64,000 nt of DNA. It comes from Natrinema sp. SYSU A 869 (GTDB lineage Archaea; Halobacteriota; Halobacteria; Halobacteriales; Natrialbaceae). Both the position numbers and the translations under genes were made by a program. The stretch is from positions 806,001-870,000 of the forward strand of contig NZ_CP082248.1 of the NCBI RefSeq assembly GCF_019879105.1, in the 5' to 3' direction. Below the pieces are notes generated by a model. The model was not told where the DNA came from. It did no database searches and saw nothing but the letters and a program-made list of their open reading frames with translations. Below, piece by piece: positions 58,727-64,000 of the stretch. Numbering within the stretch: the first letter of the stretch is position 1; each line of letters starts with the position of its first letter.

Positions 58727-59821
58727 ATGGCCAATGCAACCGTACTCGCCATCGGCGGTACCGGCTTCGTCGGCCGGCATACCGTCGCAGAATTACGTGA
58801 CCACGGATACGACGTCACGACGCTCACTCGCGGCACCCACGGGTTCCAGTTTCCCGACCAGCTGGATGTCGATCACATCGCTGGCGATCGTACCGATGAC
58901 GAGACGCTGGTCGACGCCGCCCGACAGGTCGAACCGGATATCGTCGTCGACTGTGCGGCCTACTACCCCGCGGACGTCCGCATGGCAACCGAGATATTCG
59001 CCGACGTAGATGCTTACATCTACGTCTCGAGCGGCGGTGTCTACAGCAGGCAAGAGATTCCCAAGCGCGAGGACGAGACACCGCTGCACGAGTGCACACC
59101 TGAGCAGGCCACCGACGACTCGATGAACACCTACGGGCCGCGGAAAGCCGAATGCGACCGGCTCACCCGTGCAGCCGCCGACGACGGGGTCACCGCCATG
59201 AGCGTCCGTCCGTCAGTCGTGTACGGGCCGCAGACGATCCCGGACGACGATGACAGCCGGACGGCTTCCGAGACGACCTTAACTGACGACATTCCGGCCA
59301 CCTGGGCTGACGAGGACTGGGCCGGACTCCAGACCCATCACGACTACTGGATCGATCGAGTCAACCGCTACGACCGCGTCATCGTTCCGGGTGACGGAAC
59401 GGCCATCTGGCACCGAGCCTACGTCGAAGACATCGCGAGCGCCATCCGCGTCGTGGCCGAACGGGGCGAATCCGGCGAGGCGTACAACGCCGCTGATCGC
59501 CGCGTGTGTACGCTCGAGGACGTCATCGGGCTGATCGCTGACGCCCTCGACACGTCCGTCGAGGTCGTTCACGCGAGTCGGCGCGAACTCGCACAAACTG
59601 GTCTCACGCCGAACGACTTCGTCCTGTACCACCATCCGCAAACGGAGTATCCCCACGTACTGGACACCTGTAAACTCCCATCGCTGGGATGGGAGTCAAC
59701 GCCGCCGGACGTCGCCATGGAACGGACAGTCACAGAATCCATCGCGAGCGACCGTGACGGCAGCGCCCACGACCCGGGTCGTGACGCCGAAGAACGGCTC
59801 CTCGAGACGCTTGCTGGATGA
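58727..59821 (+). CDS. NAD(P)-dependent epimerase/dehydratase (SDR family)
   Basis: A 364-residue protein from MANATVLAIGGTGFVGRHTV, an extended SDR with the Rossmann motif GGTGFVGRH at the start. DIVVDCAAYYPADVRM and AYIYVSSGGVYSRQEIP, with the YxxxK at NTYGPRKAEC, and SVRPSVVYGP form the catalytic and binding core. IVPGDGTAIWHRAYVEDIAS gives the C-terminal substrate loop. It resembles UDP-sugar epimerases or dehydratases; the substrate is unknown. It converges with the SnoaL-like gene. Chromosome-like in quality, unlike the decayed neighbours. Confidence 0.82.
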   Translation: MANATVLAIGGTGFVGRHTVAELRDHGYDVTTLTRGTHGFQFPDQLDVDHIAGDRTDDETLVDAARQVEPDIVVDCAAYYPADVRMATEIFADVDAYIYVSSGGVYSRQEIPKREDETPLHECTPEQATDDSMNTYGPRKAECDRLTRAAADDGVTAMSVRPSVVYGPQTIPDDDDSRTASETTLTDDIPATWADEDWAGLQTHHDYWIDRVNRYDRVIVPGDGTAIWHRAYVEDIASAIRVVAERGESGEAYNAADRRVCTLEDVIGLIADALDTSVEVVHASRRELAQTGLTPNDFVLYHHPQTEYPHVLDTCKLPSLGWESTPPDVAMERTVTESIASDRDGSAHDPGRDAEERLLETLAG

Positions 59822-59891
59822 AAAGCGCGTAGTCAGGACTGAGTCGGCGTAATCGGCGTAGTCGGCGCAGAAAGAGGGGACACGCTACAGG

Positions 59892-60365
59892 TCAGAGGAT
59901 GTTCCGGATCGCGCCACGTGCGAGCGTCGGGAGCTGGCCGACGATCGCGGGGAACGTGAGCCCGAGCTGTTCGGCCATCGACGACTGGTCGAAGTAGACC
60001 CTGAGGAACTCGATCCCGTCCTCGGAGACGGTGAAGACGTCGACACCCTCGAGTTCGACCGTGTTCCCCGTCGGCGGAAGCCCGTTGAACGGCCCCGTGT
60101 GAGTTCCGTGCAGGGTCCACTCGAGGACGAACACGCCCTCGACGTCCGTCGACAGTAGATCGTGGTCGCCAAAGTGAACGTCCGGAAACCCTCTCACAGT
60201 CTCCACGACCCACTTACCGATCTCGGTACCCGTCCGCGGTTCGTCGAACGGCGGGGCGGTGACGGTTCCTCCGGGTGCGAACGCTGCCATCACCGCTTCC
60301 GGGTCGTGGTCGTCCCAGCCCTCTACGTAGCGGTTGCAGTATTCGTTCATGTTAGTAGTTGCCAT
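59892..60365 (-). CDS. SnoaL-like (NTF2-fold) protein
   Basis: About 157 residues from MATTNMNEYCNRYVEGWDDH. DPEAVMAAFAPGGTVTAPPF, GFPDVHFGDHDLLSTDVEGV and FVLEWTLHGTHTGPFNGLPP are the cone-shaped NTF2/SnoaL domain typical of polyketide cyclase-like proteins and related nuclear-transport-fold enzymes. VDVFTVSEDGIEFLRVYFDQ ends the fold. The substrate is not known. The upstream ATG at 60395 is also in frame. Confidence 0.8.
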   Translation of the reverse strand: MATTNMNEYCNRYVEGWDDHDPEAVMAAFAPGGTVTAPPFDEPRTGTEIGKWVVETVRGFPDVHFGDHDLLSTDVEGVFVLEWTLHGTHTGPFNGLPPTGNTVELEGVDVFTVSEDGIEFLRVYFDQSSMAEQLGLTFPAIVGQLPTLARGAIRNIL

Positions 60366-60716
60366 GATCATGGTATCTATACGAGATGGATACATAAATC
60401 CGTGTTAACGCCGAGAGCAAGCGTGACGAGGTGGAAGCGATCACTCATGGCACCATCTGGAACTCTCGATGTCGATCCACCCTCGGGGTGAGTAAATGCT
60501 CTGTATTCAGTACGCCGTTTCTGCTATCTCCCGGATAAATCGATCGCCGCTTCGTTACCTGTTTACCCTATATTGAACGAAATTACTGTCTTCCTTTGGG
60601 GAATTTCTCGGGCGATTATTTCACTAAACTTGTTTTCGAAAGTGGTGTTACGTACGTATGCAAACTTGTCACAGAGAACAGAACAAATATCTAATTGGAT
60701 TCCATTCAAAGACGTA
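60366..60716. other. Intergenic stretch with no gene
   Basis: 350 bases between the SnoaL-like gene and the small membrane gene pair. Apart from AT-rich patches around 60600-60700 that may carry a promoter, nothing stands out. Confidence 0.35.
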
Positions 60717-61385: not shown

Positions 61386-61493
61386 CTTTGTACTGAGCGA
61401 TACGTGAGTCCCCTGTACTGAACGGTAGCTCTCAGCAGAATAGTATTCTGTGAGCTATTCTCTGATAATTAAGATTAGTTTCTCTGATTAGTC

Positions 61494-61688
61494 TCACTCT
61501 CTACTTGGCGCTCCAATCTCGAGTTCTTCGACAGCCTTGCAAGGCCTGCTATCGTGATCGACGAGACGGGTGGCAGCCAGTTGCCACGCATGCTCAGCAA
61601 GTTCAGGATCGGCCTGCTTGTACTGGACGCTGAACTCAGTCAGTGCGACAGCGATGAGAAGGTCATCTCTATGTTCAGATTCAGGCAT
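61494..61688 (-). CDS. Small 'DDLLI' plasmid-type protein
   Basis: A 64-residue protein from the Met at 61688, MPESEHRDDLLIAVALTEFS, VQYKQADPELAEHAWQLAAT, ending EELEIGAPSRE. It is the intact relative of the frameshifted gene at 47824-47985. Helical and acidic. The start is picked where both copies share it. Function unknown. Confidence 0.55.
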   Translation of the reverse strand: MPESEHRDDLLIAVALTEFSVQYKQADPELAEHAWQLAATRLVDHDSRPCKAVEELEIGAPSRE

Positions 61689-61803
61689 CGCCGGCAGTGG
61701 CCTCCTGATCGTATATAAATCAGAGCACGACGGCCAGAATACCGGCAAAGAGTCACCGAGCAAGATGGGTACCGAACTATTTCTCTCGAGTTGTAATCCC
61801 AAT

Positions 61804-61965
61804 GCTATAAGTGACTAGGTATCATCAATCAAGATGGAAGCTGCGCTCCACCTCGTCGCGGGGGCATGCGTTGAAATGCCCCGGGTGCACCAACACCCGA
61901 GACGTGGCTTCCAGCCGCAAGGCTCGAAAGCCATGTTTCGCTTACTTCTAACGGGATATAAACGT
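61804..61965 (+). ncRNA. Candidate structured RNA with GCAA tetraloop
   Basis: TATA-like GCTATAAG at 61804-61811 lies about 25 bases before a run of hairpins. Stem 1: GGGGCAT (61861) with ATGCCCC (61876). Stem 2: CGGGTG (61882) with CACCCG (61894). Stem 3: TGGCTT (61905) with AAGCCA (61928), containing AGCC-GCAA-GGCT (61913-61924) with a GNRA tetraloop. A fourth, CGGG..CCCG, is possible at about 61953-61969. The GNRA loop appears on the plus strand only. It precedes the zinc-protein gene at 62031. I know no named RNA family with this form. Confidence 0.45.
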
Positions 61966-62030
61966 CCCGCACGAGAGTCGTATCGCACTCAAGTAGCCGT
62001 CGATCCCGACAGTCGCCGCTCGAGGTGGCT

Positions 62031-62183
62031 ATGAGCGAGAAGACACAGTCAGGAGAGGAGGATGACTGGTCGCTGCCGTCGTGTCCGCATTGCGGGAAAG
62101 CGGTGATTCTGGTACACACACGCGGTCCGATGGAGCATGTCGCGGCGCCGTGTGGCTGTCGAGTCGCGTCACCTGACCTCTGA
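62031..62183 (+). CDS. Small zinc-finger protein
   Basis: A 50-residue protein, MSEKTQSGEEDDWSLPSCPH, CGKAVILVHTRGPMEHVAAP, CGCRVASPDL. CPHC and CGC pairs, about 25 residues apart, suggest one zinc ribbon. The candidate RNA lies just upstream. Function unknown; common beside TFB and SWIM genes on haloarchaeal plasmids. Confidence 0.6.
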   Translation: MSEKTQSGEEDDWSLPSCPHCGKAVILVHTRGPMEHVAAPCGCRVASPDL

Positions 62184-62364
62184 GGAATACTCAATCATCG
62201 ACGCCGATTGAGACTACCGCTGCCACATATTTTGGATCGGCGTAATCAATGCGAAGAGGAGCATTTTCTATTGATCCAGCGGAGATCAGTGAAGGAGCGA
62301 TCACGGAAACTGATCGTCGATTACGTTCCAAATCCAGTATTGCGCTTCGAACCGCATCCACGAG

Positions 62365-62646
62365 TTAGTCTTCTGGCGTCGTCACCCGAAGTTCGCCGTC
62401 AACCTCGTAGAAGTAGCCTCGCTCGATCAACCGGGAGAGTGCATGGGTCGCGTCGTCGGGTTCGAGGGCCAGTTCATCGGTACTGTGGAGAACTTCGAGC
62501 GCTTGCTCTCGAGGGATCGACTGGACATCTTCCTGCTCAGCCGAGTTGAGACTGTGAGTACAAAGGATATCGTACGCGTCCAAGATCCACTCTGGAAGCG
62601 GTGGCCGTGGATCAGAGAGATCGTTCATCTCGACGTCGTACTCCAC
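62365..62646 (-). CDS. Small helical protein of a haloarchaeal plasmid family
   Basis: A 93-residue acidic protein. MNDLSDPRPPLPEWILDAYD (Met at 62628 is a likely start), ALEVLHSTDELALEPDDATH, ALSRLIERGYFYEVDGELRV. The last part is a winged-helix-like wing (RLIERGYFYEVDGELRVT). It is the only reverse-strand gene of this small-gene group. Function unknown. Confidence 0.55.
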   Translation of the reverse strand: MEYDVEMNDLSDPRPPLPEWILDAYDILCTHSLNSAEQEDVQSIPREQALEVLHSTDELALEPDDATHALSRLIERGYFYEVDGELRVTTPED

Positions 62647-62810
62647 TCTTTGCTATCGACTCGCTTAAGAATACCCCTCAGCGGGTATAGGCCAGACTCT
62701 GGGAGGTACCAAACGGTCTCGGAGTGCTCATTCGAGCAACTGGGACTGAGATCCCTATTCAGATCTGTCTCTCCATCACCGATTCCCTGACCTGAAATCT
62801 GAGTTGTTTT

Positions 62811-62834
62811 TCGCGCCTGACGGGTGAGGCGCGA
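62811..62834 (+). promoter_or_regulatory. Hairpin with TGACGGGTGA loop
   Basis: TCGCGCC TGACGGGTGA GGCGCGA: a perfect 7-base stem with a 10-base loop, following a T5 run. It lies just before the SWIM gene start (ATG at 62837 or 62858). The loop is shared with the hairpin at 50786 (TGAGGGGTGA) while the stem is different, so structure appears to be conserved over sequence. Confidence 0.5.
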
Positions 62835-62857
62835 CGATGTGTGCCTCGAGAGTACCC

Positions 62858-63421
62858 ATGAGTACAGATCGACTGATCCATCACGAGCAGCAGCAGGAGC
62901 ACCACCACGATCGCGGCGACACCACTGACCGAGAGCAAAGGTATTCCGGAGACGTTGCTCGACTAAACGGGCATGAGCTCATCGCAATCGACGAGTGGCT
63001 CCCAGGCAGGGAGCCGACACCGTACGATCTCGATCTCACCGATGGCTACGAGTACTGCACACGCTACTGGCGCTGTCGGAACTGTGGCCAAGAACGTAAT
63101 CGTCGCGACGAGTTCAGAGACCCGTGTGAAACACCAGTACCATCGACCCCACTTGAGGCCAGTGGCTACGCAATCGACGACCCACGGACTCGCCGTGCAT
63201 TGAGTGAGGACATGGACGTCCGCTTTGCCACGGCGGGCGCTCTCTACGAGGTTGTGAGTGAGAGTGGAAATACCTACGAGGTCGATATCGAGAAAGAGAC
63301 GTGTAGCTGTCCGGACTTCGAGCAGCGCCAGCCAGACGACGGCTGCAAGCATCTTCGGCGTGTCGACCTCGAGATCCGCACCGGGCTGGTTCCCGCTCCA
63401 GATGGGACATTCAGCTGCTGA
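62858..63421 (+). CDS. SWIM zinc-finger protein, short form
   Basis: A protein of 187 residues from MSTDRLIHHEQQQEHHHDRG (7 more if GTG/ATG 62837 is used). The N-terminal His/Gln-rich stretch is followed by CRNCGQERNRRDEFRDPC (zinc knuckle) and by the SWIM motif CSCPDFEQRQPDDGCKHLRR near the C-terminus. A smaller relative of 13133-14563. It sits in a run of small genes leading to the TFB-like gene. A DNA-related role is likely, not proven. Confidence 0.75.
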   Translation: MSTDRLIHHEQQQEHHHDRGDTTDREQRYSGDVARLNGHELIAIDEWLPGREPTPYDLDLTDGYEYCTRYWRCRNCGQERNRRDEFRDPCETPVPSTPLEASGYAIDDPRTRRALSEDMDVRFATAGALYEVVSESGNTYEVDIEKETCSCPDFEQRQPDDGCKHLRRVDLEIRTGLVPAPDGTFSC

Positions 63422-63456
63422 CGATGGGTGACTGAGTCATTGCTTGAGACAATTTG

Positions 63457-63480
63457 TCGCCCCAGACGGGGTGCGGGGGC
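63457..63480 (+). promoter_or_regulatory. GC hairpin with AGACGGGGTGC loop
   Basis: GCCCC (63459-63463) pairs with GGGGC (63476-63480) around AGACGGGGTGCG. It lies 100 bases before the small zinc protein at 63580 and resembles the hairpins at 50786 and 62811. Confidence 0.35.
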
Positions 63481-63579
63481 TCAAATGGAGCCACCGCAGC
63501 AATCCATGAATATTGCTGATAGAGTACCAGGGTCGCCAGACAGTGAGACAACTCGTTTTCTGAATCGAGGTATCGCCAG

Positions 63580-63735
63580 ATGACCGACCGCAACGAGTGC
63601 CGACTGCCGACCTGTACGAGACTTGCCCGCGATCAAGTAGGGCACGCCGGACGGTTCTGTTCAGACAAGTGTGAAGTCCGATACGATCACTTGCAGGCGG
63701 ACGCTCGAGACGCTGCTCAAGAGGATTCATACTGA
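63580..63735 (+). CDS. Small zinc protein
   Basis: A 51-residue protein, MTDRNECRLPTCTRLARDQV, GHAGRFCSDKCEVRYDHLQA, DARDAAQEDSY. Two cysteine pairs (ECRLPTC and FCSDKC) form a zinc-finger-like unit. Its stop overlaps the ATG of the next gene (TGATG), so it is translationally coupled to the TFB-like gene. Function unknown. Confidence 0.6.
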   Translation: MTDRNECRLPTCTRLARDQVGHAGRFCSDKCEVRYDHLQADARDAAQEDSY

Positions 63736-64000
63736 TGCTTGAGCAGATCGATCACCGTGGCAAGCACTTCACGATCGATAACGCTATCGTCGACGAAGTA
63801 GGTGACGAGCACTCTCGACGGGCAGGTGCACTCGAACAGCAGGCACAGCGAGAGGCTCGCGAACTCGAGCTCTCCGACTCGGTACGCGACCAAGCGTGCC
63901 AGCTCTTCCGGAGTGCCCAGAACGAAGATCTGCTTCGTGGCCGATCCATCGAGGCCATCGCCGCGGCCAGCGTGTACGGGGCCTGCAGGTGTAACGGACT
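63735..64000 (+). CDS. TFB-like protein, partial (runs off the window)
   Basis: The frame runs open to the window end. It begins MLEQIDHRGKHFTIDNAIVD and shows no zinc ribbon, then enters the first cyclin repeat (RDQACQLFRSAQNEDLLRGR, EAIAAASVYGACRCNGL), very like the TFB at 49792. The absent zinc ribbon and B-reader mean it may be a shortened TFB that cannot recruit RNA polymerase normally. It is coupled to the small zinc protein upstream, which may supply the ribbon; that is speculation. Confidence 0.65.
   Translation, partial: MLEQIDHRGKHFTIDNAIVDEVGDEHSRRAGALEQQAQREARELELSDSVRDQACQLFRSAQNEDLLRGRSIEAIAAASVYGACRCNG

Follow-up and report, generated by a model that had tools for sequence, protein, structure and literature searches.

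A multicopy structured RNA, probably a 5′ mRNA leader, with a hypervariable loop and a candidate start-codon switch in haloarchaea

Introduction

What is encoded by the dense cluster of hairpins that precedes a small zinc protein gene in the haloarchaeon Natrinema sp. SYSU A 869? The cluster lies in a 64,000-nucleotide stretch of contig NZ_CP082248.1 (positions 806,001 to 870,000; hereafter, the window). The original prediction, made from the letters of this stretch, described a candidate new structured RNA on the plus strand behind a TATA-like box and offered three interpretations: a free-standing noncoding RNA (ncRNA), a riboswitch-like leader, and a mobile-element RNA. The cis-acting leaders listed for archaea are those of S15, eL15, and L4 (PMC7247131), and the fluoride riboswitch was given in 2021 as the only experimentally determined natural archaeal riboswitch (PMC8241225). 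Our sequence comparisons favor the view that the element is a structured 5′ leader, acting in cis on a two-gene mRNA and probably equipped with a start-codon switch.

Results

A structured RNA on the plus strand

The element occupies approximately positions 61832–61970 of the plus strand of the window, a region delimited by comparison of own-genome copies and by a covariance model (R1, see below) and comprising the leader and the beginning of the first open reading frame (ORF1). The plus strand of 61830–61975 has a folding energy of −66.5 kcal/mol (z = −5.3), and none of 200 shuffled sequences was equally stable. The minus strand likewise folds well (z = −4.2), so the strand is not given by folding energy alone; it is set by the promoter, the ORFs, and conservation. 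The TATA box, TATAAG (61806–61811), is present, and a TATAA-type box is present in 84 of 94 loci, in most of these at −20 to −23 (about 21 nt) from the start of the RNA model, in agreement with the predicted promoter and its spacing. Among the 10 loci without a matched box, the eight printed show variants, for example, TATATG and TTTATC. Judged from the TATA spacing only, transcription would start near 61832. With the promoter, ORF1, and the zinc ORF included, the locus extends over about 61806–62183.

The window contains the core motif, GAAAYGYSCCGGGTG-N6/7-CACCCG, a single time, against a chance expectation of 0. No match to Rfam 15 was detected in the window (the best sub-threshold hit was to a microRNA, 20.5 bits versus a cut-off of 90), consistent with the prediction of a new RNA, and ARAGORN found no tRNA gene there. 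No description of this RNA was found in the literature searched, subscription papers being outside the reach of that search. In none of 14 plasmid records does the leader region carry an annotated feature. Because of an in-frame ATG at 61834, we considered whether the whole leader is coding and rejected this reading: the frame is not maintained among copies because the loop length differs by one base.

The predicted fold is a three-way junction in which a closing helix, P1, encloses two hairpins, H1 and H2; for a leader ending at the AUG, no other fold has a lower energy. P1 is formed by GGAAGCTGCG (61836–61845) and CGTGGCTTCC (61903–61912), the latter being a shared strand that can alternatively serve as the 5′ strand of a start-codon hairpin. 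The helix has 10 bp, often lengthened to 13, and changes on both sides are found in seven of its 10 pairs; none of 500 shuffles reached its covariation score. Together, P1 and H2 are paired in 91.8% of the alignment cells. H1 (GGGGCAT-n8-ATGCCCC, 61861–61867/61876–61882) contains a conserved GAAA (61873–61876); it was kept outside the covariation scoring, and its 5′ strand is misaligned in some rows. The stem of H2 (CGGGTG-loop-CACCCG, 61882–61899) is invariant across 46 family sequences and shows paired changes in relatives: GACGTG/CACGTC (L172), GGCGTG/CACGCC (L179), and CGGATG/CATCCG (L141). The hairpin noted originally, GGGTG-CACCAA-CACCC (61883–61898), is the inner part of H2.

The variable tip hairpin AGCC-GCAA-GGCT (61913–61924) is nested inside the pairing of GTGGCTT... 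with AAGCCATG. A tip stem of at least 4 bp is present in 87 of 96 copies, with unrelated sequences (mean 4.9 bp versus 3.2 bp in shuffled sequences). The loop is of the GNRA type in only 16 of the 96 copies, so that the GNRA tetraloop, to which the original prediction drew attention, is incidental.

Thus, the three hairpins and the nested GCAA-loop stem described initially are all present where they were predicted, and the proposed plus-strand RNA is corroborated by its stable fold, its copies in the same genome, and the covarying P1, in which homologs maintain the base pairs through changes on both sides. The long third hairpin of the original fold is an alternative that draws on the strand also used by P1; covariation best supports the P1-closed junction, which had not been seen. 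We consider it practically certain that the element is a real structured RNA.

Copies in the genome and across Halobacteria

The genome comprises one contig of 3.9 Mb and two smaller ones of about 0.9 Mb each. A DNA search identified 22 paralogs, the window copy included: ten on the smaller contigs, at 89–94% identity (the window copy itself being at 100%), and twelve on the large contig, at 74–86% identity. The model R1 was built from these 22 copies and recovers all of them. It matches sequences in 96 of 391 Halobacteria genomes, representing 46 of 86 genera. Most of these genomes belong to one family, and it is only in this family, the window's own, that the matches are strong. The named loci carrying the 3′ element come from Natrinema, Halopiger, Natrialba, Halostagnicola, Natrarchaeobius, Natribaculum, and others, assigned to Natrialbaceae in the plasmid records. 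In the ten genomes searched in full, there are 4 to 26 copies per genome. Of the loci analyzed, 80 named ones were fetched by the element CGRGAYATAAACGTCYCGCACGA, in the ORF1 palindrome region (see below), and the 22 own copies by similarity alone.

In other families, the matches are weak (E = 1e-11 to 1e-4) and have the same architecture with different sequences. These outlying relatives, whose P1 is displaced by one column in the MAFFT alignment, keep P1, a GAAA-containing H1, and an H2 closed by UG...CA, as well as a further strand that is able to pair with the 3′ strand of P1 and runs into the AUG. A strict core pattern was found in 62 of the 391 genomes (22 genera), and the reversed-pattern control in none.

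The mobile-element interpretation fared poorly. The genome contains 26 matches to the TnpB-type zinc domain PF07282, all of them more than about 15 kb away from the 22 copies, leading us to reject a TnpB/IscB omega RNA; homology borders between copies are ragged; and no match to the element was found in viral contigs, so that a viral origin was likewise rejected.

Several features of the neighborhoods are worth recording. A 714-bp stretch of the window (59711–60423) recurs, inverted and at 98.3% identity, beside a different copy on contig C1, suggesting that it was duplicated or transposed recently. About 2.3–2.5 kb around the leader (61392–63870) is 91–92% identical at two copies on contig C2 (L007 and L008); this block includes a SWIM-like ORF (62837–63421), and its borders are ragged at other copies. 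Two copies (G000 C3:373911–374058 and C3:1298939–1299090) have tRNA genes no more than about 300 bp away. Near the leader, an ORF that runs off the window (63735–63998) resembles transcription factor B (TFB) by eye, and a TFB-family gene adjoins a copy on a Halomontanus plasmid.

Two overlapping ORFs downstream of the leader

The leader occupies a fixed place between the promoter and the downstream ORF. A conserved ORF begins with the ATG at the base of the third hairpin, and its end overlaps the zinc ORF; for this reason, we interpret the element as the leader of a two-gene mRNA. In the window, ORF1 (61933–62034) encodes a basic peptide of 33 aa, MFRLLLTGYKRPARESYRTQVAVDPDSRRSRWL, beginning with MIAYILPGYKRPAR. 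Across loci, it mostly spans 33–60 codons, with the consensus M-[IFL]-x-[YLF]-[ILV]-L-P-[GR]-[YH]-K-R-[PL]-A-R followed by a basic tail. The ORF1 frame is open in all 89 scored loci; of the other two frames, one is open in 18 loci and the other in none. A palindrome within ORF1, CGGGAT-ATAAAC-GTCCCG (61952–61969), codes for GYKRP and shows paired changes to CGAGAC/GTCTCG and, in L177, to CGGGGT/ACCCCG. In the 80 named loci, which were fetched by it, conservation of the palindrome and of ORF1 codons 8–14 is by construction; the 22 own copies are independent in this respect and show the same codons. In two outlying loci (L173 and L177), ORF1 (GFKRPDR and GYKHPAR, respectively) continues in frame into a longer zinc-containing protein, which is followed by an ORF overlapping it by 4 nt; in L173, the latter encodes a CPxCG...PCGC protein.

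The small zinc protein predicted downstream is indeed encoded there, by ORF2 (62031–62183; 50 aa, zinc-ribbon-like, MSEKTQSGEEDDWSLPSCPHCGKAVILVHTRGPMEHVAAPCGCRVASPDL), which overlaps ORF1 through ATGA at 62031–62034. The two ORFs are found in this order in 21 of the 22 own copies, and the zinc ORF has a match in most of 100 named loci. The stop codon of ORF1 overlaps the start of the zinc protein in 88 of the 89 scored loci. The zinc start lies inside the end of ORF1 by 4 nt in 47 loci, 8 nt in 37, 11 nt in four, and 1 nt in one; starts were taken as the nearest in-frame ATG or GTG at most 40 nt from the stop, a window far wider than the clustering at two values. Overlaps like these proved to be strictly coupled in 13 of the 14 pairs tested in Haloferax volcanii and Escherichia coli (PMC6728339). 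For this locus, we infer both production of a common mRNA and coupling of the two ORFs. That the element is a cis-acting leader of the ORF1-ORF2 operon is, in our estimation, very probable. The riboswitch-like leader comes closest among the original guesses; the message has two genes, ORF1 having been overlooked.

ORF2 contains CPxCG and PCGC motifs, with C18, C21, and P40-C43 invariant in 47 sequences. It has no Pfam or NCBIfam match above the cut-off; the PF07754 (HVO_2753) profile scored 14.9 bits against a cut-off of 33.2, with one paralog only. The predicted beta model is of moderate confidence (pLDDT 72), and its fold matches, mostly to large-subunit ribosomal zinc-ribbon proteins, are non-significant (best E = 0.42). 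A class-wide search detected the zinc protein in 96 of 292 genomes, in multiple copies mainly in the window's own family, and in some relatives without a detected leader. Six copies from Halopiger djelfimassiliensis (L071, L088, L109, L122, and L145 among them) lack a recognizable zinc ORF; these copies keep the leader and the ORF1 start, and their ORF1 frame is much longer.

A candidate start-codon switch

The shared strand GUGGCUUCC can pair either with the 5′ strand GGAAGCC in P1 or with the later AAGCC-AUG (61928–61935), which consists of a competing strand followed by the start codon of ORF1 (61933–61935). In a set of 40 distinct sequences drawn from several lineages, coevolution links the shared strand to each of its two partners: the pairing run was 9.2 versus 7.4 with shuffled partners for P1 and 5.9 versus 4.9 for the AUG hairpin (0 of 500 shuffles in each case), although these sequences are related, so that the shuffles overstate the significance. 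For the 13 sequences of the outlying set, the values were 8.7 versus 6.3 (P1) and 5.5 versus 4.2 (AUG hairpin). Within the family, 87% of the cells of the AUG hairpin are kept, and its covariation is not above that of the shuffles. In two Halostagnicola loci (L094 and L103), all three strands are altered together, to AGAAACC, GGTTTCT, and AAACC. When the leader plus 30 nt was folded under standard conditions rather than molar salt, the lowest-energy fold contained P1 in 52 cases and the AUG hairpin in 44, with a median difference of 3.9 kcal/mol between the two states.

These patterns make a start-codon helix switch somewhat probable. Transcription would begin about 25 nt past the TATA box, just before P1, and the nascent RNA would form the junction, with P1 closing H1 and H2 and the AUG of ORF1 free. 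The AAGCC-AUG segment could then invade and pair with the GUGGCUU strand used by P1, burying the AUG in a hairpin. A shift between the two states would turn translation of ORF1 on or off, and, since the ORF1 stop overlaps the zinc ORF start, the zinc protein would be translated through termination-reinitiation after ORF1. The likeliest candidate for reading the input is the H2 loop, perhaps together with the tip hairpin, as these are the parts that differ among copies; the best fit would be an RNA partner matching a single copy and none of its paralogs.

The hypervariable H2 loop

The loop of H2, 6–7 nt long and CACCAA in the window (61888–61893), stands out in the comparison of paralogs. Among ten near-identical paralogs, its mean pairwise identity is 0.455, compared with 0.641 for the tip, 0.973–1.0 for the rest of the leader, and 0.877 for third codon positions of the zinc ORF. 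Pairs of paralogs with identical leaders outside the loop carry different loops, and all 22 own loops are distinct. In another genus, two copies 4.3 kb apart have the whole leader in common, with loops TTGGCG and CCACAAA. The loop sequences are non-random: their first and last bases favor C-A or U-G and avoid Watson-Crick pairs. Certain loops recur in different genera, and, among orthologs, some syntenic pairs retain the loop and in others it is entirely replaced. The simplest interpretation of this pattern is diversifying selection for locus identity; alternatively, a mutation process confined to the loop may be at work.

The loops showed no complementarity to their own loci in six regions within 1 kb on both strands (all |z| below 1.5). 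Complementarity to the 41 tRNA anticodon loops of the same genome was no better than for column-shuffled loops, and, given this lack of enrichment, we rejected a T-box-like tRNA sensor. Complementary loop pairs are not enriched within a genome (0.9% within versus 1.4% between genomes at 5 nt), and identical loops within a genome are not significantly depleted (2 seen, 4.8 expected, P = 0.13). We put the chance that the H2 loop is a copy-specific recognition element slightly below even. The broader scheme, in which a class-wide leader family uses the hypervariable loop as copy identity, operons are addressed separately by matching RNAs, and strand exchange is the output, is speculative and rather doubtful.

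Discussion

Alternative explanations

The multiplicity of paralogs and the variability of their loops also suit a module resembling type I toxin-antitoxin systems, in which ORF1 or the zinc protein would be harmful and silenced by the leader, a putative cis-antisense RNA would bind the loop, and loops would differ so that copies avoid cross-silencing. The hydrophobic start and basic tail of ORF1 would fit a toxin; the near-identical leaders have two variable regions, with every own loop distinct; in Zor-Orz, a 3-nt variable region sets paralog specificity (PMC3919570); and the minus strand of the ORF1 palindrome has the sequence TTTATATC, which could serve as an antisense promoter. Such a module is nevertheless unlikely, given that no sequence complementary to the loop was found within 1 kb and that the avoidance of identical loops is non-significant. 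A further alternative is autoregulation by a protein, whereby the zinc-ribbon protein or the ORF1 peptide would bind the leader or the GYKRP palindrome and repress translation. The palindrome, an in-frame hairpin, maintains pairing through changes; the zinc protein has weak fold similarity to ribosomal zinc-ribbon proteins; and in outlying relatives, the leader precedes other zinc or SWIM proteins. Autoregulation leaves the hypervariable loops unexplained, however, as plasmid paralogs with near-identical zinc proteins differ in their loops, and the fold matches are non-significant for a model of moderate confidence; we regard it as quite unlikely.

The original interpretations included a free-standing ncRNA. 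Acting in trans and ending, by processing or termination, ahead of the zinc ORF, such an RNA would account for a compact, conserved, multicopy structure whose hypervariable loops would suit trans targets. It is very improbable, considering that the conserved ORF1 begins inside the structure and overlaps ORF2 and that the conserved region contains no U-run terminator. The cis-acting leader with a start-codon switch is the reading we prefer.

Relation to known systems

Like this element, the S15 leader of Halobacteria and other ribosomal-protein leaders are structured archaeal 5′ leaders, which probably control translation of their own message. The present leader differs in its genes, its many copies per genome, and its hypervariable loop; the two are set apart by description and by the lack of an Rfam match. 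Translational riboswitches hide or expose the start region by means of alternative helices, as we propose here, but the candidate sensor loop of the leader varies among copies, whereas a metabolite-binding site would not. The Ibs-Sib and Zor-Orz systems (PMC3919570) share with the leader family small ORFs, multiple near-identical paralogs, and short variable RNA stretches. Those systems are bacterial, whereas here two ORFs are probably coupled and one product is predicted to bind zinc, and the two would work alike only if an antisense RNA exists.

As for the proteins, the haloarchaeal zinc-finger micro-proteins HVO_2753 and HVO_0758 (PMC10716476) are small and have C(P)xCG motifs, as does ORF2, which differs in having one CPxCG plus PCGC. 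By description, a pair acting on bop in Halobacterium (PMC5496347) combines a small basic protein with a small zinc-finger protein, resembling ORF1 and ORF2; that pair is described without a leader RNA (PMC5496347). Thus, a translational leader is of a known kind, and its multicopy, hypervariable archaeal form appears to be new within the sources searched.

Implications

Very few cis-regulatory RNAs are known in archaea, and this leader offers dozens of natural variants in single genomes, together with covariation and a clear readout, namely, how two small ORFs are translated. It would make strand exchange, as a means of start-codon control, testable in haloarchaea. Each copy also adds about two small genes that are usually missed by annotation. 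The loop raises the question of what recognizes one copy yet not its near-identical siblings; if the addressing scheme is true, it would amount to self/non-self or type I-like RNA addressing of 4–26 near-identical operons per archaeal genome.
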